Notes: generated by a model not told the origin, from the sequence alone. A DNA stretch of 33,436 nucleotides from an uncultured delta proteobacterium (GCA_947259215.1 CAMYLJ010000043.1:1-33436); one strand, 5' to 3'; shown: positions 9,135 to 29,927, counted from the first letter of the stretch. Numbers and translations are program-made.

Positions 9135-9455
9135 TCAGGAGTCGTCGACGTAGAGGGTGATCCGAATGCCCTCGGGCGGCACGAAGACGTCCTGGACGCG
9201 ACCGCCGGCCAGGACCTCGCAGGGGCCGGTCTGCATCACGTCCACGCTGAAGAAGCCGGAGCTCCCCGCGTTGGCCTCGATCTGGATCGGCTCCTCCACT
9301 CCGCAGGAAATCACGATTTCGGCGTACGCCGCCGGCTCCCCGCTAGGGAACAGGACCTGGCCCGAGAGCAACGGCTACGCGGAGGCGTCGGGGACGCAGA
9401 GCCACGCAAGGACGAAGAGCAGCACCAGCTGCTTCGCGCGTCGGGATCGAATGCG
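9135..9455 (-). pseudogene. Secreted beta-sandwich (carboxypeptidase regulatory-like) protein with in-frame stop
   Basis: Two in-frame segments are separated only by a TAG at 9377-9375. Upstream is a typical export signal: basic RIRSRRAKQ, hydrophobic LVLLFVLAWLCV, then a PDASA cleavage site. Downstream is a 78-residue domain beginning LLSGQVLFPSGEPAAYAEIVI, with SSGFFSVDV and a terminal VFVPPEGIRITLYVDD, the pattern of carboxypeptidase regulatory-like or Ig-like repeats (xGxVxxxxGxPxxxAxV...GxF). The stop falls exactly where the mature protein would begin, so the ancestral gene was one secreted protein of roughly 105 residues. No ATG is visible just before the signal. It ends 26 bases before the coiled-coil gene and probably shared its transcript. 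Confidence 0.55.
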
Positions 9456-9473
9456 GGAGGGCGTGGTGGCCCC

Positions 9474-9617
9474 GCCCAGGCGGAGAGCCCGCGCCGCGTT
9501 GTCCCAGAGGATCTTGCGCTCGCTCGGCTCGGAGATCGGCTTCTCCTCGAAGCGGGTGGTGCCCCAGGGAGAGGTGTCATCGGCCGACCCGGCCAGAAAC
9601 GGGATCGCGGCGCGCAT
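9474..9617 (-). pseudogene. C-terminal fragment resembling an amidohydrolase-family protein
   Basis: From an ATG at 9617 the frame reads AIPFLAGSADDTSPWG and then EPSERKILWDNAARALRLG. The last block is the usual C-terminal helix of PF04909-type amidohydrolases (ERxKILWxNAARLY). Only this tail is present; the metal-binding core is missing. It is in frame with the downstream signal peptide without an intervening stop, which looks accidental. I take it as a remnant, with modest confidence. Confidence 0.35.
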
Positions 9618-9899
9618 CGCAGACCCTCCGATCCGACAGGATACACCCGACCGCTCTTGCAAGGGAAGCCGGATCGCCGCAGGCTGTGCGTCGCGGCCTA
9701 CCTCCGGGGGGCTGGAGCGTGGCCGGCACGTTGTCCGGCCGCGCGGCCCGAAGAACGCGGTGTGTGGGCGTTCGAGCTGTGATCGGTCTCTTCCCGCCTG
9801 CAAGTCCGGGATGCGGCGCAGGGGCCGGGAAGCACCGCTCCAGAAGTCGGTATCCTATCGGTGTCGGCGGATCGCGCACTGACCGGCAGGAGGGGCCCG
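9618..9899. other. Gene-free stretch upstream of the TIR gene
   Basis: Open frames cross this stretch on both strands but none shows recognisable protein content or a credible start. It should contain the promoter of the TIR gene; no clear -35/-10 pair stands out. Confidence 0.5.
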
Positions 9900-10880
9900 A
9901 TGGAATGGATCGGTGACGACGACACGTTCCGCATCTTCATCAGCCACAAGCACGAGGATCACGGCGTGGCGAGGGCGTTGAAGGATGCGCTCGGTAGCCT
10001 ATCCGGCGAGTACGCGATCGAAGCCTTCGTGTCCGGCAGCGATATCCCCGCCGGCGCCGATTGGAACTCCCTGCTCAGGGCCGAGCTGGGTCGCAGCCAC
10101 ATGCTGATCCTGCTCTTCACGAATCCGAGCCGGAACTGGGACTGGTGCCTCTACGAGGCCGGCCTCTTCACCCGCTTCGATCGCGAGCAGGCGCGCGCGG
10201 TGGTCTGCCTGTACGACCCCGGCAGCTCGCCGCCGTCGCCGCTCAAGGGCCTCCAGGGCGTACCGGTGCGCGAGCGGAAGATCGAAACGTTCCTGGCGAG
10301 GCTCTGCAAGACGACGTGGGAGGTCGCCGACGACTGGAAGCGCGGGCCGTTGAACGCGGGCATCGAACCCAAAGCCATCGCGTCCGCCGCCCAGACGATC
10401 TGCGACTCCTTCCAGCACGGCACGTACGCCTACCACCCGTGCCACCGGGTCGTGCTCGACCTGACCGCCGTCGGGAAGATCGGTGACAGGATTCCCGAGG
10501 AGGCCCACGTCGTCGAGGGCCCGGGCGCCACTTCTGCCTTCACCCTCTCGATCTTCGGAGTCGCCGAGGGTGCAAGAGAACGCACCTGGGGCGACCTGCT
10601 CGAGGGAGTCGAGGGCCGCGAGGCCGACTGGCGCCGGCAGCTCGACGAGGTCTTCTGCGCAGCATTGCGTGAAGAGCTGTTCGAGCCGGTGACGGCCCCC
10701 CTGCGATCGTGGCAGCAGAACCGCGACTACCGCCCGATTCTCTACCGGATCGAGCGCGCCCGGGAGCAGGTGGACGAGGCAAAGGCGGCGGACGAGGTTG
10801 GGGAGAAGGACGAGTCTGGCCAGCTGCTCGAGGTGGTGATCGTGTTTGAGGGGTCGGTCGGCCCGGAAAAAGAGCGCTAG
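9900..10880 (+). CDS. TIR domain-containing protein
   Basis: This 326-residue cytoplasmic protein begins with a bacterial TIR domain (about residues 9-140). Strand A is FRIFISHKHEDHGVARALKDAL, the BB-loop region is FVSGSDIPAGADW, and the alpha-C segment WDWCLYEAGLF places E86 in the WCxxE position of the catalytic glutamate in NAD-cleaving TIR domains. NADase or cyclic-ADP-ribose signalling activity is therefore plausible. The C-terminal half (150-326) is an unrecognised alpha/beta region that may sense a trigger; it ends abruptly after LLEVVIVFEGSVG and could be slightly truncated. AGGAGG at 9888-9893, six bases before ATG 9900, fixes the start. It diverges from the decayed secreted and membrane genes at 7.8-9.5 kb, which may have been its partners. 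Confidence 0.9.
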   Translation: MEWIGDDDTFRIFISHKHEDHGVARALKDALGSLSGEYAIEAFVSGSDIPAGADWNSLLRAELGRSHMLILLFTNPSRNWDWCLYEAGLFTRFDREQARAVVCLYDPGSSPPSPLKGLQGVPVRERKIETFLARLCKTTWEVADDWKRGPLNAGIEPKAIASAAQTICDSFQHGTYAYHPCHRVVLDLTAVGKIGDRIPEEAHVVEGPGATSAFTLSIFGVAEGARERTWGDLLEGVEGREADWRRQLDEVFCAALREELFEPVTAPLRSWQQNRDYRPILYRIERAREQVDEAKAADEVGEKDESGQLLEVVIVFEGSVGPEKER

Positions 10881-10918
10881 AGCTGGGCGACTCGCCCGGC
10901 GGAGTTCGGGAGATCGCT

Positions 10919-12730
10919 GTGCGGCTCACGGGCAGGGGCAGGAGATTTCTGGTCGGTGCGCTGGCGCTGGGCGTCGGCGGCTGCGCGGGCGGCGCCTCCG
11001 CCCCTGCCGACCCTCCGCCGCCGCGGCCGGCCGCGGGCGCCGACCAGCCCGCGGCGCCCGAGAGCGCGTTCCCGAGCGTCGAGCGGCTGGAAGAGCTGGC
11101 CGAGGAAGAGGCGCCCCTGGCCTCGGTCTTCGCCGTCGAGCACGCCGACGTGGACGGCTGGACCCTGCGCGGTCCGCTGCCGGATCGCATCGGGGACGAG
11201 CCGATCGCTTCTCCCGGGCCGTTCGACGAGCGGCTGCTCGCCGCGGCGCGGCGGCGGGCGGGACTGGTGGTGGCCTCCGAGGCCATGCGCTGTGCGGCGC
11301 GCGAGCTGGCGTACTTCGTGCTCGAGAACGAAGCCCCTCCGCCCCGCCCGTTGCGTCGCTTCATCCTCGGCCGCTGCGGCGCCACGGGCTCGGAGTCGAT
11401 GCTCGGGTGGTTCGGCGCGCGGGTGCCGGCAGGGGCGACCGAAGCGGAGGTGGTGGACGCCTGGCGCGCCGATCTCGACGAGGCGGTCGCGCGCTATCTG
11501 GGAACCGGACCGCGCGCGGTGGGCATCGGACTTGCGCGCGACGGCGAGGACGCGCTCGCGCTCGTGGTGTCGGCCCGGCGGCGCGTGCACCTGGATCCGG
11601 TCTCGTCGGTTCCCGACGCTGAGGGCTGGCTGCGGCTCCAGGGCGAGTTGCTGGACCCGGGCGATGACGTCGGTGCCCAGATGAATCACGGTGCCACCGG
11701 CTTCGCGGAGTGCGAAGCCGATCCCGCCGTGCGCCTGCCGCGCTTCTCGCTGGCCTGTCGGGTGGACCGCGCTGACGAGTCCGCGTGGGTGTCCGTCAGC
11801 GTGCGCAGGCCGGGGCGGCTGCTGTTGCAGTCGGTCCTGGGCGCGCTGGCACGTCCATCGGGAGGTGCGGCCGATCGCTGGGAGCGCGGACGCTACGGAG
11901 GCAGCGGGACCGTCGAGGATCCCGACGCGTTCGCCGAGCGGCTGCTGGTGGAGGTGAATCGCCTCCGGCGTCGCGCAGGCGCTCAGCTCCTCGCACTCGA
12001 GGCGGGCGAGAGCCAGCTGGCCGTCAAGCTGGCGCCTTTCTACTTCGGGTCGAGCCTCGGCCTGCTGGAGGATTCCTACGGCGACCTGGTGGCGCTCGGC
12101 CTGATGGCCGGCTGGCAGGTGGACGGCCTGGTGCGGCACGCGCACATGGCCGGCACCCTGGCGCTGGCCACCCTCGACCTGGGGCATTGGCTGGCGCAGG
12201 CCTTCCAGGATCCCGGCGTGCGCCGGGTGCTGATGGACCCCGAGGCCTCGCGGCTCGCTGTCGGGGCCCTGATGTCCGAGGAGCACCGCTACCTGGCCGC
12301 GGTACTCACCGGCTACACCCTCGTCGGCGACGAGGACCCGAGCGAGGCGCGCGAGGCCTTCTACGCCCGCCTGAACCGCGACTTCGACGAACGTGGTCTG
12401 CGCTTTCCGCGCCGCGCGCGCGAGATCGAGGCGGCCGCCGCACGCCACGCCGCACGGGTGCGCGTCGGCTCGGTGGGACGCGACGAGGCCATCGACGCGA
12501 TCCTGGACGAGGCCGCAGCCCTGGCCGGCGCGAACGTGAAGGGCTGGGTCCTGGACGGGACCCGCGTGGAGGACGCGATGCTCCCCGACGAGCTCTTCCG
12601 CTCGCCGCCGAGCCGCGTCGCCGTGGCGGTGGCTCGCTACCAGCCCGTGGCCTGGCCCTGGGCCCGGCTCGCCATCTTCCTCGTCTCCATTCCCGAGACC
12701 GGCACGCGCTCCGCCCGCGCCCCGCGCTAG
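10919..12730 (+). CDS. Hypothetical lipoprotein with CAP-like segments
   Basis: This 603-residue protein starts at GTG 10919 after GGGAGA. The N-terminus has basic residues, a hydrophobic run and the lipobox VGGC with lipidated Cys22, followed by a Pro/Ala-rich linker, so it should be an envelope lipoprotein. Two segments recall the CAP/SCP fold without being convincing: SEAMRCAARELAYFVLEN with VGIGLARDGEDALALVV in the N-terminal half, and LLVEVNRLRRRAGAQLLAL further on. A hydrophobic helical part (FGSSLGLLEDSYGDLVALGLM, GYTLVGDEDP) follows. No enzyme motif is certain. It stands between the TIR gene (38 bases upstream) and a convergent methyltransferase whose stop overlaps its own end. I cannot assign a function. 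Confidence 0.8.
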   Translation: MRLTGRGRRFLVGALALGVGGCAGGASAPADPPPPRPAAGADQPAAPESAFPSVERLEELAEEEAPLASVFAVEHADVDGWTLRGPLPDRIGDEPIASPGPFDERLLAAARRRAGLVVASEAMRCAARELAYFVLENEAPPPRPLRRFILGRCGATGSESMLGWFGARVPAGATEAEVVDAWRADLDEAVARYLGTGPRAVGIGLARDGEDALALVVSARRRVHLDPVSSVPDAEGWLRLQGELLDPGDDVGAQMNHGATGFAECEADPAVRLPRFSLACRVDRADESAWVSVSVRRPGRLLLQSVLGALARPSGGAADRWERGRYGGSGTVEDPDAFAERLLVEVNRLRRRAGAQLLALEAGESQLAVKLAPFYFGSSLGLLEDSYGDLVALGLMAGWQVDGLVRHAHMAGTLALATLDLGHWLAQAFQDPGVRRVLMDPEASRLAVGALMSEEHRYLAAVLTGYTLVGDEDPSEAREAFYARLNRDFDERGLRFPRRAREIEAAAARHAARVRVGSVGRDEAIDAILDEAAALAGANVKGWVLDGTRVEDAMLPDELFRSPPSRVAVAVARYQPVAWPWARLAIFLVSIPETGTRSARAPR

Positions 12731-22843: not shown

Positions 22844-23265
22844 GCGATCGCCCCGGGATCGGGCCCAACCGCTTCGGCGCGGAGGCGGTGGGTATCGAGA
22901 TCCTCGAGGCCTCGCCGGAGCGCATTCGCGCGCGCGTGGAGGCGGGTCCCCAGCACCACCAGCCCTACGGGATCCTCCACGGCGGCGTCTACTGCGCCAT
23001 CGTCGAGGACGTGGCCAGCCAGGGGGCCGGGCTCGCGGCCCGCGCCCGCGGCCAGGCGGGTGTGGTGGGCGTGTCGAACCAGACGGACTTCCTGCGCTCT
23101 CACAGCACGGGCGAGCTGGTGGCCGAGGGCACGCCGATCCACGCGGGCCGGAGCGTCCATCTCTGGCAGGTGGTGATTCGCCGCAGCCGCGACGAGGCCG
23201 TCGTGGCCCGCGGCCAGGTCCGCTTCCACGTGCTGAGCGAGCTGCCGTCCGAACGCTCGGGCTAG
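22840..23265 (+). CDS. Hotdog-fold thioesterase (PaaI-like)
   Basis: This 141-residue protein has the hotdog acyl-CoA thioesterase pattern. QPYGILHGGVYCAIVEDVAS (41-60) holds the HGG turn and catalytic Glu56 of the PaaI/YdiI type, followed by VVGVSNQTDFLRSHSTGELVAEGTPIHAGRSVHLWQVV. It would hydrolyse an acyl- or aroyl-CoA, perhaps the product of the CoA transferase just upstream, with which it shares ATGA. Its TAG stop (23263-23265) overlaps the TAG of the convergent FG-GAP gene in the tetranucleotide CTAG. Confidence 0.92.
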   Translation: MSDRPGIGPNRFGAEAVGIEILEASPERIRARVEAGPQHHQPYGILHGGVYCAIVEDVASQGAGLAARARGQAGVVGVSNQTDFLRSHSTGELVAEGTPIHAGRSVHLWQVVIRRSRDEAVVARGQVRFHVLSELPSERSG

Positions 23266-24227
23266 CCCGCGCGCCGGCGCCGACCCCGGCGCAGAACGTG
23301 CGCCGTGACCAGGACCAGCAGAGGCTCGATCCCGAGCAGGCCGCAGCCCTCGGGGTGCCGCCAGACCACCAGCGTGCCGTTTCGCGCCACACCGTTGAGC
23401 ACCCGCAGCGAACCTCCGAGCCAGGCGATCGTCACCTCGTGCACGGGCTCCGCGATGGGGGCGCCCAGCCCGAAGTGGGCCACCGCCTCGCTCTGGCCCA
23501 GGAAGTGGCTGGCGGCGCCCATCTCGCGCACTTGCACGGGTCCGCCGGGGACGGCCTGCACGCGGATCTTCGCGCCGAGCCCGCGGAAGTTGCCGCGGCG
23601 GTCGCGGAGCTTGATACGCAGCCAATCGTTCGCGTTGCCGCCGTCGTTGCGGTAGAGGAGCCCGCCGTCCACGGTGTTGGCGAGCATCAGGTCGAGGTCG
23701 CCGTCTTCGTCGTAGTCGAGCACGGCCAGACCCTTGCCGGAGCGGACGTCGACCAGGCCCACCTGGGCGGAGCGCGCGCTCAGGTTCCCGCTGCCGTCGT
23801 TCTCCCAGTAGCGCATGGGGTCCGCGTTGAAGGCGGCGTCGGCGCCCACGAGCGGGAAGTCGACGCCGTTGGTCATCACCAGATCGAGGTCGCCGTCGTT
23901 GTCCGCGTCGAAGAAGGCGGCGCCCCAGCCCCAGAAGCCGGCCCGCACGCCCGCGGCGTCGGTGGCGTCGCCGAAGCTGCGGCCGCCGTCGTTGCGGTAG
24001 AGGCGGTTCCCGGTGATGCCCCAGCCGCAGTTCTGGCTCGAGCAGGTGTCGAGGGGATCCCAGATGGAGGTGACGAACCAGTCGAGGTCGCCGTCGCCAT
24101 CGTAGTCGCCGAAGGTCGAGCCCATCCCGTTCTCGTCGGTTCCGACCCCGGCCCCGCTGCGTCCTCCAGGAAGGTCCCGTCACGCGGCCACCGCAAGGAT
24201 CAGGATCGTGAACGTCCGTGCCAGCAT
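23262..24227 (-). pseudogene. Damaged FG-GAP/ASPIC-type secreted protein with C-terminal sorting-like tail
   Basis: From ATG 24125 the frame gives 287 residues with three calcium-binding FG-GAP motifs (DYDGDGDLDW, DADNDGDLDL, DYDEDGDLDL) spaced about 65 residues apart, then the ASPIC/UnbV domain (LRIKLRDRRGNFRGLGAKI...GQSEAVAHFGLG...VTIAWLGG). The end reads GCGLLGIEPLLVLV and then an Arg-rich stretch, a tripartite sorting-type tail. Upstream, the same frame has a stop at 24182-24180 preceded by a short signal (ATG 24227, LARTFTILILAVAA), and RDGTFLEDAAG is found in a different frame. The protein normally has several more repeats between signal and first motif, so an internal deletion plus a frameshift has probably broken the gene. 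A shortened product from 24125 would lack export. Confidence 0.7.
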
Positions 24228-24404: not shown

Positions 24405-25427
24405 TCAGGCCGTGGGCGCGTGGTCGCGCAGCCAGGCCACCGTGTCGCGCAGCGTCTCGCGCGGATCGCGTGCCTTGTAGCCGAGATCGTCCCCGGCGTG
24501 CAGGGAGCGCGCGCCCCAATAGCGCGATGCCATCTCCACCACGACCGGATCGGGCAGCAGGTGCAGTCGCTCCAGCGCCCGCGCCAGCAGCCAGGCCGGG
24601 CGGTAGGGCAGGAGCCAGCGCGGCGCGGGCACGCCCGATACCTCCTCCACCATGCCGAAGAACTCCTCGATGGAGCACTCGGTGCCTTCGACGTGGTAGA
24701 CCGGGCGCGGCGCTGGATGCGCGAGCGCCGCCACGACGGCGTCGGCCGCATCGCGCACGTCCGCGAAGTGGATGCCGCCGCGGACCACGAAGGGCAGCTT
24801 GCGGCGGATCGCCTTCCACACGTTGCTGGTGGAGCGCAGGCGGTGGTCGCCCGGTCCGAGCAGGACCGGAGGTCGCAGGAAGACGAGCTCGACGTCCAGC
24901 TCCTGCGCCAGGGCGCGCGCGCGCCGCTCCGCCTCGATCTTCGAGCGGTAGTAGGGCCAGCGCCCCACGGTCTCCTCCGCGTAGGCGGCGTCCTCATCGG
25001 CGCGCTCGTGGGGGCTCTCGAAGCAGCCCACGGTTCCCGACGTGGAGACCATCACCAGGCGACAGCGGTGCGCGGCGGCCAGCCGCACCATGTGCAGGGT
25101 GCCTTCGACGTTGGTCTCGTAGAGGTCGCCGACGTCGCGGCGGCTGTGGCGCACCACGGCGGCCAGGTGGAGGATGCCGCCCAGGGCCGGAAGCTCGCCG
25201 GACCAGCTCGGGGTGTGGGCCACCGCGCCGCGCACGAGCTCGACGTTGCCGAGGTCCCGGGTCCAGTCGTAGCCGTGCCACTGGGCGGGGTCGCGCACGA
25301 GCGCCAGGACGTCGCGCTCCTCGTCCTGAGCCGCGAGGCGCGTCAGCACGTGACGGCCGACGAAGCCCGTGGCGCCGGTCAGCAGCAGCGGCCGCGTCTC
25401 GTCGGCGGGGAGGAGGGGGTCGCTCAC
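24405..25427 (-). CDS. Extended SDR (NAD-dependent epimerase/dehydratase-like), third gene of ether-lipid operon
   Basis: This 340-residue protein has the extended SDR fold: TGATGFVG (17-24) for the dinucleotide, LHLAAVVRHS (87-96), VSTSGTVG (128-134) holding the serine, and YYRSK (159-163) with the Tyr-Lys pair. FLRPPVLLGPGD and a C-terminal substrate-binding lobe follow. The group includes dihydroflavonol reductase- and 3-beta-HSD-like enzymes acting on ketones. Its GTG start overlaps the acyltransferase fusion's stop as GTGA, so it is translationally coupled to the ether-lipid genes. It could reduce alkyl-DHAP, the step done by PexRAP in peroxisomes, or act on a lipid head group; that role is inference from position. 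Confidence 0.9.
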   Translation of the reverse strand: MSDPLLPADETRPLLLTGATGFVGRHVLTRLAAQDEERDVLALVRDPAQWHGYDWTRDLGNVELVRGAVAHTPSWSGELPALGGILHLAAVVRHSRRDVGDLYETNVEGTLHMVRLAAAHRCRLVMVSTSGTVGCFESPHERADEDAAYAEETVGRWPYYRSKIEAERRARALAQELDVELVFLRPPVLLGPGDHRLRSTSNVWKAIRRKLPFVVRGGIHFADVRDAADAVVAALAHPAPRPVYHVEGTECSIEEFFGMVEEVSGVPAPRWLLPYRPAWLLARALERLHLLPDPVVVEMASRYWGARSLHAGDDLGYKARDPRETLRDTVAWLRDHAPTA

Positions 25428-28132
25428 GACGGATCCACCCCGGCGTCGACCCGCGCGCACAGGTGGGCGTACGACTCGATCTCCTCCGCCGCGGGCCCGA
25501 AGGCGTGGCGCCCGGACTCGGCGTCGCGCACCAGCGCTCCGCGCTCCACGAGGTCTTCGAAGGCGCCTTCCACATCGGGTCGGTGGGCGCCGGCTCGCTC
25601 GCGGGTCACGTCCGCGGGCTCCGGCACGGCCGCCGCGGTGCGCAGCCGCTCCGCCAGGACCCCGGCGGTACCGGCGTAGTCCGCGCGCACGGGCTCGAAC
25701 AGGGCGCGCAGGACGGAGCGCACCCGCGGGTCGCTCAGCTCGGCCTCCGGGTCGAGGGTCTTCCCCGGCGCGTAGCCGTTGCGCCGGATGTGGTGCTCGA
25801 CCGCCGGGTTTCCCGCGTAGGCGAGCGCGGCCTCGGGGTAGAAGAGGTGCAGGAAGTGGTAGCGCATGCAGCGCTCGATCACGTCGGGCACCGCCTGCTC
25901 GCGCCGGGCGACCTCCAGCACGCGTCCTCCGCGACGCTCGAGCGCCGCCACCAGCCAGTCGAGATCCACGTCCTTCAGGTCGTTCCGGGACAGGAATCCG
26001 CGCAGGTGGTGGGTCGTCGTCACCGTCTCGGCCTGGAGCTGCCCGACCACCTCGCGCGAGACGGCGTGCACGTCGCTGGTCAGGTCCAGGCCGACCGGGC
26101 GCCCGCAGGCCAGGTGGATCCGGCCCAGCTCGACCTGGCCGCGCAGCAGCCGTGCGGTCCAGCCCAGGAGGCCTCGCAGGCGCATCGGCGGCTTCGGCGC
26201 GCCTTCGAGCTCGGCGACGAAGGCCGCCTGCTCCGGCACGTGGTCGTAGCTGATGGCCACGGGTAGCAGGGTCACCGGGCGGCCGGTGGCCTGGAGGCTG
26301 CGCAGCAGCCCGCGCCGCGGGGGCAGGCAGCGGCGGGAACGGCTGCGCTGGCCCTCGATGAAGAACTCGAGGGTTTCGCCGTCGGCCACCAGGGCGTGAA
26401 CCGCCTGGGTGAGGGCCTTGTCCTCGCGGCCGTGGCCCCGCTCCAGGTAGAAGGCGTGCAGCTGCCGGAAGAGCCGGCCCAGCAGCGGGATGCGCGCGAA
26501 CTCCACGGCCGCGGCCACGTGCGGGATCGACAGCCCCAGGTCCGGGCGCGCGAAGCACAGGAAGGAGATCAGCACGAAGTCCAGGTAGCTGCGGTGCGAG
26601 GGCGCGATCACCACCACGGCCTCGTCCGGGATGGCGGCTCTCCCGCGGCGGAAGGACTCCACGTCGACGGTCACCCGGTCCACGCCGCGGCGCAGCGCCT
26701 TGGCGACGAGCCATGCCGCGGCGCGGATGAAGAGGTTTCCGCGCGGCTGGCTGGCTGCCCAGCCGAGATCGCCGCGCCGGCGCCGGTGGGCGCGCCCAGC
26801 CAGGTTGACCTCGCGCTTGTCGCCGCCGAGCAGGTGCTGGTAGATCCCGCGGCAGACCGTGTCCAGGTAGCGCGCCACGTCGAAGTCCGGGTCGCGCAGG
26901 GGCAGCGAGCTCTGGAACCGGAAGCTGTTGAGCGTGAAGTAGGCGAAGCGGCGGTTGGTGTCGGCCAGGCGCTCCGCGATGGGCTTCGACTCGCGGCGCA
27001 GCCGGTGCTGCGCCAAGTGCCACAGCCGGTAGCGGAGCCCGTCGGGCCCGATGTAGTGCACGCGGGCCAGGGGGCCGCCGCCGTCGCCCAGCGGGTTGCG
27101 CGCGAAGAACTTCTGGATGCGCTCCCCGCACAGCACCAGGCTCGGGCTGCGCTCGGAGCCGGCCACGGCATGGCGGATCGGCACGGCCACACCCGCCTGG
27201 CGCGCCGCCGGCGAGGGCCGGAAAGCGGACGTCAGGATGCGATCCGCCACCGCGTCCACGGGCACGATGTCGAGGCGCGAGTGCCGCTTCGCCACCACGG
27301 CGCGCATGCGGCCCGAGCCGATCATCATCACGAACAGCGCGAAGGCCGCCGGGCTGTCGATCCAGCCCGGGAAGGGATGCCGGTGGGCGGCGCTGATGAT
27401 GCTGGGGCGCACCAGGGTGAGGGGCACGTCGCCGCGCCGCTCCAGCAGCAGGTGCTCGGTCAGGCACTTGGTGAGGGTGTAGGTGTTCGGATGGCCCGTC
27501 ACCGCCAGCAGGCCGGCCTCGTCGTCCGGGTCGGCGTAGCCGCCGGCCAGGATCTCGCCGTAGGTCTCGGCGGCCGGCCGTCGCAGCGGAGCCAGCACCT
27601 CTTCCACCGGGACGCGGTCGCCCGGGTGCGGTGTCACGTAGGCGGTGGAGACGTCCACCAGCGAGCGCAGGTCCGGGCACGCCCGCGCCAGCTCCAGCAC
27701 GTGGAGTGCGCTCGTCACGTTGGCCGCGGCGGCCTGGGCGATCGGCAGGTGGAACTCCACGGACGCGGCGCAGTGGATCACGTGGGTGGTGCGGGCGCAG
27801 AGCGCGCCGCGCGCCTCGGGCGCGAGACCGGCCGCTTCGCTGGCGAGATCGCCGGCCACGGGGACCACGTGCTCGGTCCAGCTCTCGGGCAGCCGCGAGA
27901 AGCAGGGCGAGCCCAGCACCTCGCTGCGGAAGCGCGCCTCGGGCGAGACGCCCCGCTTGCGCCGGACGAGCGCGTGCACCCGCGCCACCCCGAGCTCCTC
28001 GCGCCGGCGCAGGAGCTCGTGCAGCACGACCTTCCCCAGGAACCCGGTCGCACCGGTCAGCAGGACCTCAGCGCCCTCGTTCGTTCCTCGCGACAACGAC
28101 TCCCCCCCAGGCGTCCGGTCAGGCCGGATCAT
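25424..28132 (-). CDS. Fatty acyl-CoA reductase-like / PlsB-GNPAT-like acyltransferase fusion
   Basis: This 902-residue protein joins two enzymes. Residues 20-330 form the NAD-binding (male-sterility type) domain of fatty acyl-CoA reductases: TGATGFLG (26-33), VIHCAASVEF (118-127), DVSTAYV (160-166), catalytic Y218-TLT-K222 and VRPSIISA. Residues about 460-720 are a glycerol-3-phosphate/DHAP acyltransferase: block I PSHRSYLDF with H513 and D518, the LGRLFRQLHAFYL segment, block III FIEGQRSRS (591-599) and block IV LLPVAISYDHVPE. A helical C-terminal region typical of GPAT/GNPAT follows. It should make fatty alcohol and acyl-DHAP, the two inputs of the upstream alkyl-DHAP synthase, whose stop it overlaps by 14 bases. 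The start could also be GTG 28138; neither has a strong binding site. A bifunctional role is inferred. Confidence 0.92.
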   Translation of the reverse strand: MIRPDRTPGGESLSRGTNEGAEVLLTGATGFLGKVVLHELLRRREELGVARVHALVRRKRGVSPEARFRSEVLGSPCFSRLPESWTEHVVPVAGDLASEAAGLAPEARGALCARTTHVIHCAASVEFHLPIAQAAAANVTSALHVLELARACPDLRSLVDVSTAYVTPHPGDRVPVEEVLAPLRRPAAETYGEILAGGYADPDDEAGLLAVTGHPNTYTLTKCLTEHLLLERRGDVPLTLVRPSIISAAHRHPFPGWIDSPAAFALFVMMIGSGRMRAVVAKRHSRLDIVPVDAVADRILTSAFRPSPAARQAGVAVPIRHAVAGSERSPSLVLCGERIQKFFARNPLGDGGGPLARVHYIGPDGLRYRLWHLAQHRLRRESKPIAERLADTNRRFAYFTLNSFRFQSSLPLRDPDFDVARYLDTVCRGIYQHLLGGDKREVNLAGRAHRRRRGDLGWAASQPRGNLFIRAAAWLVAKALRRGVDRVTVDVESFRRGRAAIPDEAVVVIAPSHRSYLDFVLISFLCFARPDLGLSIPHVAAAVEFARIPLLGRLFRQLHAFYLERGHGREDKALTQAVHALVADGETLEFFIEGQRSRSRRCLPPRRGLLRSLQATGRPVTLLPVAISYDHVPEQAAFVAELEGAPKPPMRLRGLLGWTARLLRGQVELGRIHLACGRPVGLDLTSDVHAVSREVVGQLQAETVTTTHHLRGFLSRNDLKDVDLDWLVAALERRGGRVLEVARREQAVPDVIERCMRYHFLHLFYPEAALAYAGNPAVEHHIRRNGYAPGKTLDPEAELSDPRVRSVLRALFEPVRADYAGTAGVLAERLRTAAAVPEPADVTRERAGAHRPDVEGAFEDLVERGALVRDAESGRHAFGPAAEEIESYAHLCARVDAGVDPS

Positions 28133-29927
28133 CCTCACTGCCGAAGAGCTGGTTGGCCGCGCCGAAGAGGTTGTTCGGGTCGGCGGCGGCCTTGATCCGA
28201 CGGGCCATGGCGAGCGTGCCCGGCGAGGCGATCCGCGCCAGGAAGGGCTGCCGGATCTTCCCGATCCCGTGGTGGTGGGAAAGGGAGCCCCCCTGCTTCA
28301 GGACCTCGTCGCGGGCCGCCTGCTCGAGCTCCGCGTAGACATGGCTCGGATCCGCCACGCCCTGGAAGAAGAACGCGTAGTAGAAGTAGACGCAGACGCC
28401 GGTCTCGTAGACCTGCGTCACGCGGCAGGTGAGGAAGGGCTTGCCCGGCAGTCCGCGTCGCTCGTGCTCCTCGCGCAGACGACGCTTCACGTTCTCGCAC
28501 AGCGCTTCCACCTGCGACCACGGCACCGAGGTCTCGAAGCTCTCGCCGAGCAGGAAGTGGTTCATCACCCAGTCGCGCAGGTAGGCGATGGCGAAGGTCA
28601 GCTGGTAGCCCCGCTTGCCGTTCTCCGAGCCGCCCGCGATTCCGCCGTGGCGCTTCGCGATGGCGTAGGTCTGCTTCTCCTGGGCGCGGACCTCGTCGCG
28701 AGTCCCCTCGAAGACCAGGGTGCAGGCCGTCATCTGCTCCACGTCGAAGCCCTTGACCCGGGTCACGAAGAGCTTCTCCACGTCGCTCTTGAGCTTCGCC
28801 AGTCCGGTCTTGCGCGGCTTCAGCATCTGGCTGAAGACGAACTGGAAGTTGTCCACCAGGCGCGCGCTGGCCGGCACGTTGCCGGCCTGCTGCAGCTCGT
28901 AGAGGAAGCGCACGCCGCTGGCGAAGTCCGGGAAGACGATGGAGCCGTAGTGCTGCACCTCGGGCAGCGGGAAGATCTTCACCACGGCGCTGGTCACGAT
29001 CCCGAGGCAGCCCTCGCTGCCGAAGATCCAGCGTCGGACGTCGCCCGCGCCGACGCTCTCCCGCGGCGCCACCGCCGGCCGCTCGAGCACCCCCTGGGCC
29101 GTCACGACGCGCACCCCGAGCACCAGGTCCTCGATGTTCCCGTACTTGTTCTTCTTCATCCCCGAGGCGTGGGTCGCGACCCAGCCGCCCAGGGTCGAGA
29201 ACTCCACACTGTCGGGCTCGTGGCCCAGGGTGTAGCCGTGGCGCGCGAGGCCGGCGGCGATCTGGCGACCGACGGCGCCGGCCTGGATGCAGGCGGTGCG
29301 GTTCGTCGGATCGATCCACAGGATCCGGTTCATGCGGCTCATGTCGACGGAGACGATGCTGCGGGCTTCGTCCTCGGGGCAGTGGAGCGCCTCGCTCACG
29401 TTGGTGCCGCCGCCGTAGGGAATCAGGCAGACACCGTGGCGCCCGGCCGCCTCCACCAGCGCCTCCACCTGCGCCTCGTCGGTCGGCCACACGACCAGGT
29501 CCGGCACCCGCGGGATGCGGCCGTACTTGATGGCGTACATCTCCTCCTGGGTGTGGCCGTGACCGTGACGGAGCCGCAGCTCCGGATCCTCGGAGAGCTG
29601 GTCGTCGGCCAGGTGCTTGCGCACCTCGTCCAGGAAGGCGGCGTTGCGGACGGGTTCGGGGATCTCGGGCGGGTAGGACGGCGGGTTCAGGTTCTCCGGG
29701 TTGATGCCCGGGTGCACCGCTTCCTGGACCCACGGCACCAGATCGGGCAGCTCCTGACCCGAGAGCTCGTAGCGGTCGCCCGTCACCTCCACCACGCCGT
29801 CGGCGCGCAGGCGGAAGGCGGTATCGCGGAAGCCCCAGACGTCGAGGGATTCGACATCGCGCGGGTCGACGGGGAGCGGCTCCGGCACGATGCGCGGCGC
29901 ATCGGGATCGTAGGCGCGCTGGGACAT
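28119..29927 (-). CDS. agpS: Alkyldihydroxyacetonephosphate synthase (AGPS-like FAD enzyme)
   Basis: This 602-residue FAD-dependent enzyme exchanges the acyl chain of acyl-DHAP for a fatty alcohol, forming the ether bond of alkyl ether lipids. The match to the peroxisomal enzyme is strong along its whole length: GRIPRVPDLVVWPTDE (136-151), IPYGGGTNVSEAL for FAD (169-181), HEPDSVEFSTLGGWV (236-250), SGMKKNKYGNIEDLV (255-269), CRVTQ (501-505), the YFYYAF segment (514-519) with the active-site Tyr, and SLSHHHGIGK (549-558) with the catalytic His cluster. It lacks a peroxisomal targeting extension, as expected in bacteria. ATG 29927 has GGAGGG about seven bases upstream. It heads an operon with the reductase-acyltransferase fusion and an SDR, which supports ether-lipid synthesis rather than a generic lactate-dehydrogenase-like role. 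Confidence 0.95.
   Translation of the reverse strand: MSQRAYDPDAPRIVPEPLPVDPRDVESLDVWGFRDTAFRLRADGVVEVTGDRYELSGQELPDLVPWVQEAVHPGINPENLNPPSYPPEIPEPVRNAAFLDEVRKHLADDQLSEDPELRLRHGHGHTQEEMYAIKYGRIPRVPDLVVWPTDEAQVEALVEAAGRHGVCLIPYGGGTNVSEALHCPEDEARSIVSVDMSRMNRILWIDPTNRTACIQAGAVGRQIAAGLARHGYTLGHEPDSVEFSTLGGWVATHASGMKKNKYGNIEDLVLGVRVVTAQGVLERPAVAPRESVGAGDVRRWIFGSEGCLGIVTSAVVKIFPLPEVQHYGSIVFPDFASGVRFLYELQQAGNVPASARLVDNFQFVFSQMLKPRKTGLAKLKSDVEKLFVTRVKGFDVEQMTACTLVFEGTRDEVRAQEKQTYAIAKRHGGIAGGSENGKRGYQLTFAIAYLRDWVMNHFLLGESFETSVPWSQVEALCENVKRRLREEHERRGLPGKPFLTCRVTQVYETGVCVYFYYAFFFQGVADPSHVYAELEQAARDEVLKQGGSLSHHHGIGKIRQPFLARIASPGTLAMARRIKAAADPNNLFGAANQLFGSEDDPA

Follow-up and report, generated by a model that had tools for sequence, protein, structure and literature searches.

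The three genes on the minus strand between positions 24405 and 29927 of the window (the whole 33,436-nucleotide stretch of DNA analysed here, from an uncultured delta proteobacterium) very likely encode the early part of ether-lipid synthesis through the DHAP route familiar from animal peroxisomes, and are the counterpart of MXAN_1676-1674 in Myxococcus xanthus. They encode a homologue of alkylglycerone-phosphate synthase (AGPS), a fusion of a fatty acyl reductase (FAR) with a PlsB/GNPAT-type acyltransferase, and an extended SDR (Table 1). This reading is based on homology, intact catalytic motifs, a kept gene order, natural gene fusions that link the SDR to the pathway, and the lack of any match to ElbD or to PlsA-type enzymes. 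Whether, in this lineage without ElbD or a genuine CarF, the three genes are the sole route from acyl-CoA and DHAP to 1-O-alkyl-glycerol-3-phosphate and cover all of it, with the SDR and ElbE as an extended-SDR type of bacterial alkyl-DHAP reductase, we regard as evenly balanced. The new points are modest: the link between the SDR and ElbE with its supporting gene fusions, and lineages in which the operon appears to stand alone.

Table 1. Genes and protein domains of the operon, in window positions
Feature	Position	Strand	Details
AGPS (alkylglycerone-phosphate synthase) homologue, gene 1	28119..29927	-	ATG 29927, 602 aa; phmmer, Pfam
FAD-binding domain of AGPS	29085..29504	-	residues 142-281; PF01565 (FAD_binding_4) E=7.5e-39
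C-terminal cap/active-site domain of AGPS	28164..28967	-	residues 321-588; PF02913 (FAD-oxidase_C) E=1.7e-40
FAR-GNPAT fusion, gene 2	25424..28132	-	902 aa from ATG 28132
Fatty acyl-CoA/ACP reductase domain of fusion	27239..28060	-	residues 27-300; PF07993 (NAD_binding_4) E=3.9e-62
FAR C-terminal ('Sterile')-like segment of fusion	26831..26947	-	residues 398-436; PF03015, 7eoz fold match
PlsB/GNPAT-type acyltransferase core of fusion	26249..26644	-	residues 499-630; PF01553 (Acyltransferase) E=2.3e-20
C-terminal helical region, acyltransferase half	25454..26068	-	residues about 691-895; predicted helices
Extended SDR, gene 3	24405..25427	-	GTG start, 340 aa; PF01370 (Epimerase) E=6.3e-27

The first-pass annotation of this DNA had described the reading frames, their order, and overlaps of 4-14 bases, all of which the ORF coordinates confirm, and the motifs that it named (YFYY, SLSHHHG, TGATGFLG, YTLTK, HRSYLD and EGQRSRS) all lie in the proteins to which it had assigned them. 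The AGPS and fusion genes overlap by 14 bases (20 if the fusion begins at an alternative GTG at 28138, giving 904 aa), and the fusion stop and SDR start overlap by 4 bases (GTGA), so the three genes are very probably co-transcribed. With a third-position GC of 0.94-0.95, the reading frames of AGPS and the fusion fit real genes in a GC-rich genome; together with the Pfam E-values, this argues that the ORFs and motifs are not due to chance. Just downstream of the SDR, an FG-GAP/UnbV-ASPIC repeat ORF (23262-24125, minus strand) appears to be truncated at the N-terminus, perhaps through a frameshift, which would point to gene decay or to an error in sequencing. Elsewhere in the window, the plus strand encodes a TIR-domain protein (9861-10880; PF13676 E=4.6e-10, with weak ThsB/TIR-TM matches) flanked by proteins at 9157-9882 and 10919-12730, both without a Pfam or PADLOC match; the stretch 9157-12730 is possibly a defence or signalling locus.

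Along its whole length the AGPS homologue can be aligned with guinea-pig AGPS (PDB 4bby; 45% identity over 578 columns, phmmer E=9.3e-176), and it also matches 2uuu end to end, its VAO-type FAD-binding and FAD-oxidase C-terminal domains spanning the full length. Guinea-pig residues H300, D303, T309, R419, R515, S527, Y578 and H615-617 are all identical in the window protein, where R356, R451, Y514 (in the YFYY motif) and H551-H553 (in SLSHHHG), all located in the C-terminal cap/active-site domain, align with R419, R515, Y578 and H615-617. In Dictyostelium AGPS, mutagenesis has shown R352, R447 and Y508 to be catalytically important, and AGPS requires acyl-DHAP and works by a covalent flavin mechanism (PMC3509576). 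These three residues correspond to R356, R451 and Y514 of the window protein (chain numbering offset +3), and because they are kept the same covalent flavin mechanism is probably applicable here.

Both halves of the fusion carry intact catalytic residues, which show little or no variation across 15 homologues taken from other genomes. In the reductase half these are the TGxxGFxG motif (TGATGFLG, residues 28-35), the catalytic Ser/Thr (VSTAYV, which includes residues 164-165) and the YxxxK motif of FAR (YTLTK, Y220-x3-K224). The acyltransferase half contains PlsB/GNPAT motifs I-IV as HRSYLD, FYLER, EGQRSRS and P-x3-ISYD, and in the homologues the conserved forms are HRSY-x-D, F-Y-x2-R, EG-x-RSRSR and, for motif IV, P...YD. 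A predicted model of the fusion (pLDDT 76, from a shallow alignment) gave rice fatty acyl reductase DPW (7eoz, E=1.3e-18) as the best fold match of the reductase half, over 485 alignment columns that cover the FAR C-terminal domain. The corresponding Pfam family, PF03015 (FAR_C/Sterile), is weak in 7 of the 15 homologues (best E=0.0015) and non-significant in the window fusion itself. The C-terminal helical region is modelled mostly at pLDDT 88-97; GPAT_C is found weakly in two of the 15 homologues, and the region is mostly missing in the homologue at locus L078 and shorter in that at L080.

To our knowledge, neither a bacterial FAR-GNPAT fusion nor an SDR of the operon type has been assayed as a purified protein. 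We infer the individual reactions, the choice of DHAP over glycerol-3-phosphate, the substrate and cofactor of the SDR, and any physical coupling, as follows. The reductase half would convert fatty acyl-CoA (or acyl-ACP) to fatty alcohol, while the acyltransferase half would convert DHAP to 1-acyl-DHAP. AGPS would then form a covalent DHAP intermediate at FAD-N5, in which the fatty alcohol replaces the acyl group to give 1-O-alkyl-DHAP, and the SDR may use NADPH to reduce the ketone at C2, yielding 1-O-alkyl-glycerol-3-phosphate that would enter ordinary phospholipid synthesis. The assignment of FAR, GNPAT and AGPS functions to the DHAP ether-lipid route, as first made from the DNA alone, has good support in the sequences, the folds and the order of the genes. 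The accompanying suggestion of direct channelling of fatty alcohol and acyl-DHAP does not follow from the fusion, as both are substrates of AGPS, which is a separate polypeptide. Since AGPS uses both products, the fusion would secure their co-supply and cannot itself pass either one on, and because it cannot feed its own other half, direct channelling would need a fusion-AGPS complex. Such a complex, if there is one, would be comparable to the GNPAT-AGPS complex reported in mammals (PMC9131029).

The SDR, with the active site WPYYRSK, was modelled at pLDDT 92, and its best fold match is gox2253 (3wj7); further matches are to cinnamoyl-CoA reductase, dihydroflavonol reductase and similar ketone/aldehyde reductases, rather than to sugar epimerases. 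A sugar epimerase had been considered and was rejected on this fold and profile, and on the best NCBIfam match, HpnA, which scored 142 bits against a cut-off of 368. A maximum-likelihood tree places the operon SDRs in a single clade (100/99), joined by M. xanthus ElbE (95/95), and ElbA and the other sampled SDRs of two genomes fall outside this clade, where several branches are long and the branching order is unsure. In M. xanthus, inactivation of elbE lowers ether lipids, an effect that elbD does not rescue (PMC9131029). In two genomes the SDR is physically joined to the pathway: a Nitrospira-labelled MAG encodes FAR-GNPAT-SDR in a single 1189-aa frame (L078, 5914-9480), and genome G189 (L037/L054; L054:2-2269) encodes FAR-SDR in a single 756-aa frame, without the acyltransferase. 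We found no description of either natural fusion in the literature examined. The grouping with ElbE, whose loss affects ether lipids, and these fusions make the SDR the best candidate for the alkyl-DHAP reductase of the ether-lipid pathway, and it probably reduces 1-O-alkyl-DHAP. The first-pass annotation had listed the SDR in the operon and had given it no role; the ElbE clade and the fusions now place it in the pathway. In mammals alkyl-DHAP reduction is carried out by DHRS7B (PMC13200781), and we found no firmly assigned bacterial alkyl-DHAP reductase in the literature searched.

The gene order is conserved well beyond the window. In a sample of 284 genomes from the phylum, 29 strongly match the fusion or one of its halves. 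Scanning named genomes yielded 40 loci; AGPS is the immediate upstream neighbour in 33 of the 37 where this could be assessed, and the SDR the immediate downstream neighbour in 32 of 34. Carriers nominally from other phyla are MAGs labelled Gammaproteobacteria, Bacteroidetes, Gemmatimonadetes, Nitrospira, Acidimicrobiia and Planctomycetota. Some loci encode FAR alone (L032/L049, L034/L050 and L094) or the acyltransferase alone (L033/L055), either beside AGPS or in the locus, and in none of these was a separate gene for the other half found nearby. Standalone forms such as those of L032, L034 and L033 indicate that the fusion is not obligatory, a point that weighs against our best explanation. 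One single-half relative (G265) has ElbD, which could be its fatty alcohol source. The FAR-only forms are placed among the fused forms in the FAR tree, with modest support, which tentatively suggests repeated loss or splitting of the fusion. We found no further description of the operon outside Myxococcus in the open-access literature. One record in the scan, 'Comamonas sp. KCTC 72670' (BNCN01; L086 and L090), has two Myxococcus-type operons and CarF in a 9.0 Mb genome, and is probably a mislabelled myxobacterium.

Two of the proposed reactions have to be weighed against alternatives. The main rival for the SDR is that the FAR half carries the reduction no further than the aldehyde, and that the SDR reduces fatty aldehyde to alcohol instead of acting on alkyl-DHAP. 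In keeping with this, the closest folds to the FAR half include NRPS/PKS R domains and the R domain of carboxylic acid reductase, many of which stop at the aldehyde, cinnamyl-alcohol dehydrogenase and aldehyde reductase are among the matches of the SDR, and the fusion in G189 joins FAR to the SDR with no acyltransferase between them. However, the best fold match of the FAR half is a full-length fatty acyl reductase including its C-terminal domain, and an SDR devoted to aldehydes would leave the operon without an assigned alkyl-DHAP reductase. ElbE loss lowers ether lipids despite ElbD having a FAR domain of its own, an observation that does not separate the two readings. On balance we consider aldehyde reduction by the SDR unlikely, and favour alkyl-DHAP as its substrate. 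For the acyltransferase half, action on glycerol-3-phosphate in the manner of PlsB, or re-acylation of a lyso-ether lipid, would agree with its nearest library models, which are those of plsB (6.7e-33, residues 491-686, far below cut-off), and with its fold match to human GPAT1 (8e4y, E=4.9e-14). Yet the window genome already encodes a separate PlsB (871.5 bits against an NCBIfam cut-off of 721) and another PlsB-like protein, so bulk phospholipid synthesis does not need the fusion. The acyltransferase is fused to FAR and stands beside AGPS, which needs acyl-DHAP (PMC3509576), and no other source of acyl-DHAP is evident. Given this fusion, this neighbour and the separate PlsB, DHAP appears to be the acceptor, and we regard the glycerol-3-phosphate and lyso-lipid readings as very improbable. 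We nevertheless count it against our best explanation that the acyltransferase half lies far below the plsB cut-offs, with DHAP as its presumed substrate on the strength of context.

The final lipid is a further point at which readings diverge. The window genome contains a protein of the CarF/TMEM189/FAD4 family (PF10520; G000:C6:52791-53303) that is 41% identical to M. xanthus CarF, and on this match we initially favoured a pathway ending in plasmalogens, in which this protein would desaturate the alkyl lipid. CarF H113 is essential, and is missing from homologues unable to replace CarF (PMC9131029). In the window genome's sole CarF-family protein the position equivalent to H113, located through the 281-aa M. 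xanthus reading frame, is Arg (MTRRRY vs ITRHDF), as is usual in the plant homologues that cannot replace CarF, so that the histidine expected of CarF/TMEM189 (PEDS1) is not present. Two same-order carriers have no PF10520 match at all. We therefore dropped this gene as a source of plasmalogens, and a plasmalogen end point now seems distinctly unlikely. The anaerobic PlsA/Ger route was also rejected: DUF2229, which we take to be the domain of the PlsA/Ger-type anaerobic ether-lipid enzymes, had no match in the genomes tested, including the window genome. With Arg at the His113 position and no ElbD or PlsA-type enzyme found, we predict that the organism makes alkyl-ether lipids, and not plasmalogens, by the operon alone. 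As the window genome is about 96% complete, the absences are likely rather than certain.

As a system for studying a pathway known chiefly from peroxisomes, the operon is a clean one. ElbD masks it in M. xanthus, whereas the window genome and at least two same-order relatives gave no ElbD match; in such lineages, expressing or deleting the three genes would test their sufficiency for ether lipids. The analysis also supplies a concrete alkyl-DHAP reductase candidate in the SDR, and in ElbE with it, and helps in predicting whether uncultured bacteria have alkyl or vinyl ether lipids.

The arrangement of AGPS, fusion and SDR is already known from M. xanthus, of which the window operon is a further, well-conserved case. 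The MXAN_1676-1675-1674 operon encodes AGPS, a fusion with a FAR1-like N-terminus and a GNPAT-like C-terminus, and an NAD epimerase/dehydratase (PMC9131029, citing Curtis 2006 and Lorenzen 2014), and so shares with the window the co-directional genes, their order, the fusion and the SDR type. A locus of M. xanthus AM003 (L083), which we take to be this operon, has the same order, with identities of 58, 45, 42 and 44% for AGPS, the FAR half, the acyltransferase half and the SDR. M. xanthus differs in having a dominant ElbD and a genuine CarF, whereas the window genome has no ElbD match and a CarF-family protein that lacks His113. Disruption of MXAN_1676 causes a drop in ether lipids, which speaks for our best explanation, but the drop is slight because ElbD supplies most of them (PMC9131029); the operon is thus the minor route in M. 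xanthus, which we count against that explanation.

ElbD itself, which the first-pass annotation had offered for comparison, proved to be the wrong comparator, and the true counterpart of the fusion is MXAN_1675. ElbD has a FAR-ACS-ACP-AGPAT-like order (PMC9131029; sequence P0004), and a Pfam search of the fusion (P0002) found no ACS or ACP domain. Neither the window genome nor five same-order genomes gave an ElbD match at E<=1e-40. The likeness to the elb operon is confined to the FAR domain at the N-terminus of ElbD and to the grouping of the window SDR with ElbE; ElbD is about 1470 aa long, its FAR domain lies far off in the FAR tree (branch 5.6) and the elb operon has no AGPS. The PlsA/Ger-type anaerobic enzymes give the same kind of product, ether glycerolipids, but are unrelated. 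A parallel in reactions is the animal peroxisomal set of FAR1, GNPAT, AGPS and DHRS7B/PexRAP, from which the same series of steps would be expected and whose AGPS is 45% identical with its catalytic residues kept. Unlike the animal system, the bacterial one has FAR and GNPAT in one polypeptide and operates without an organelle.
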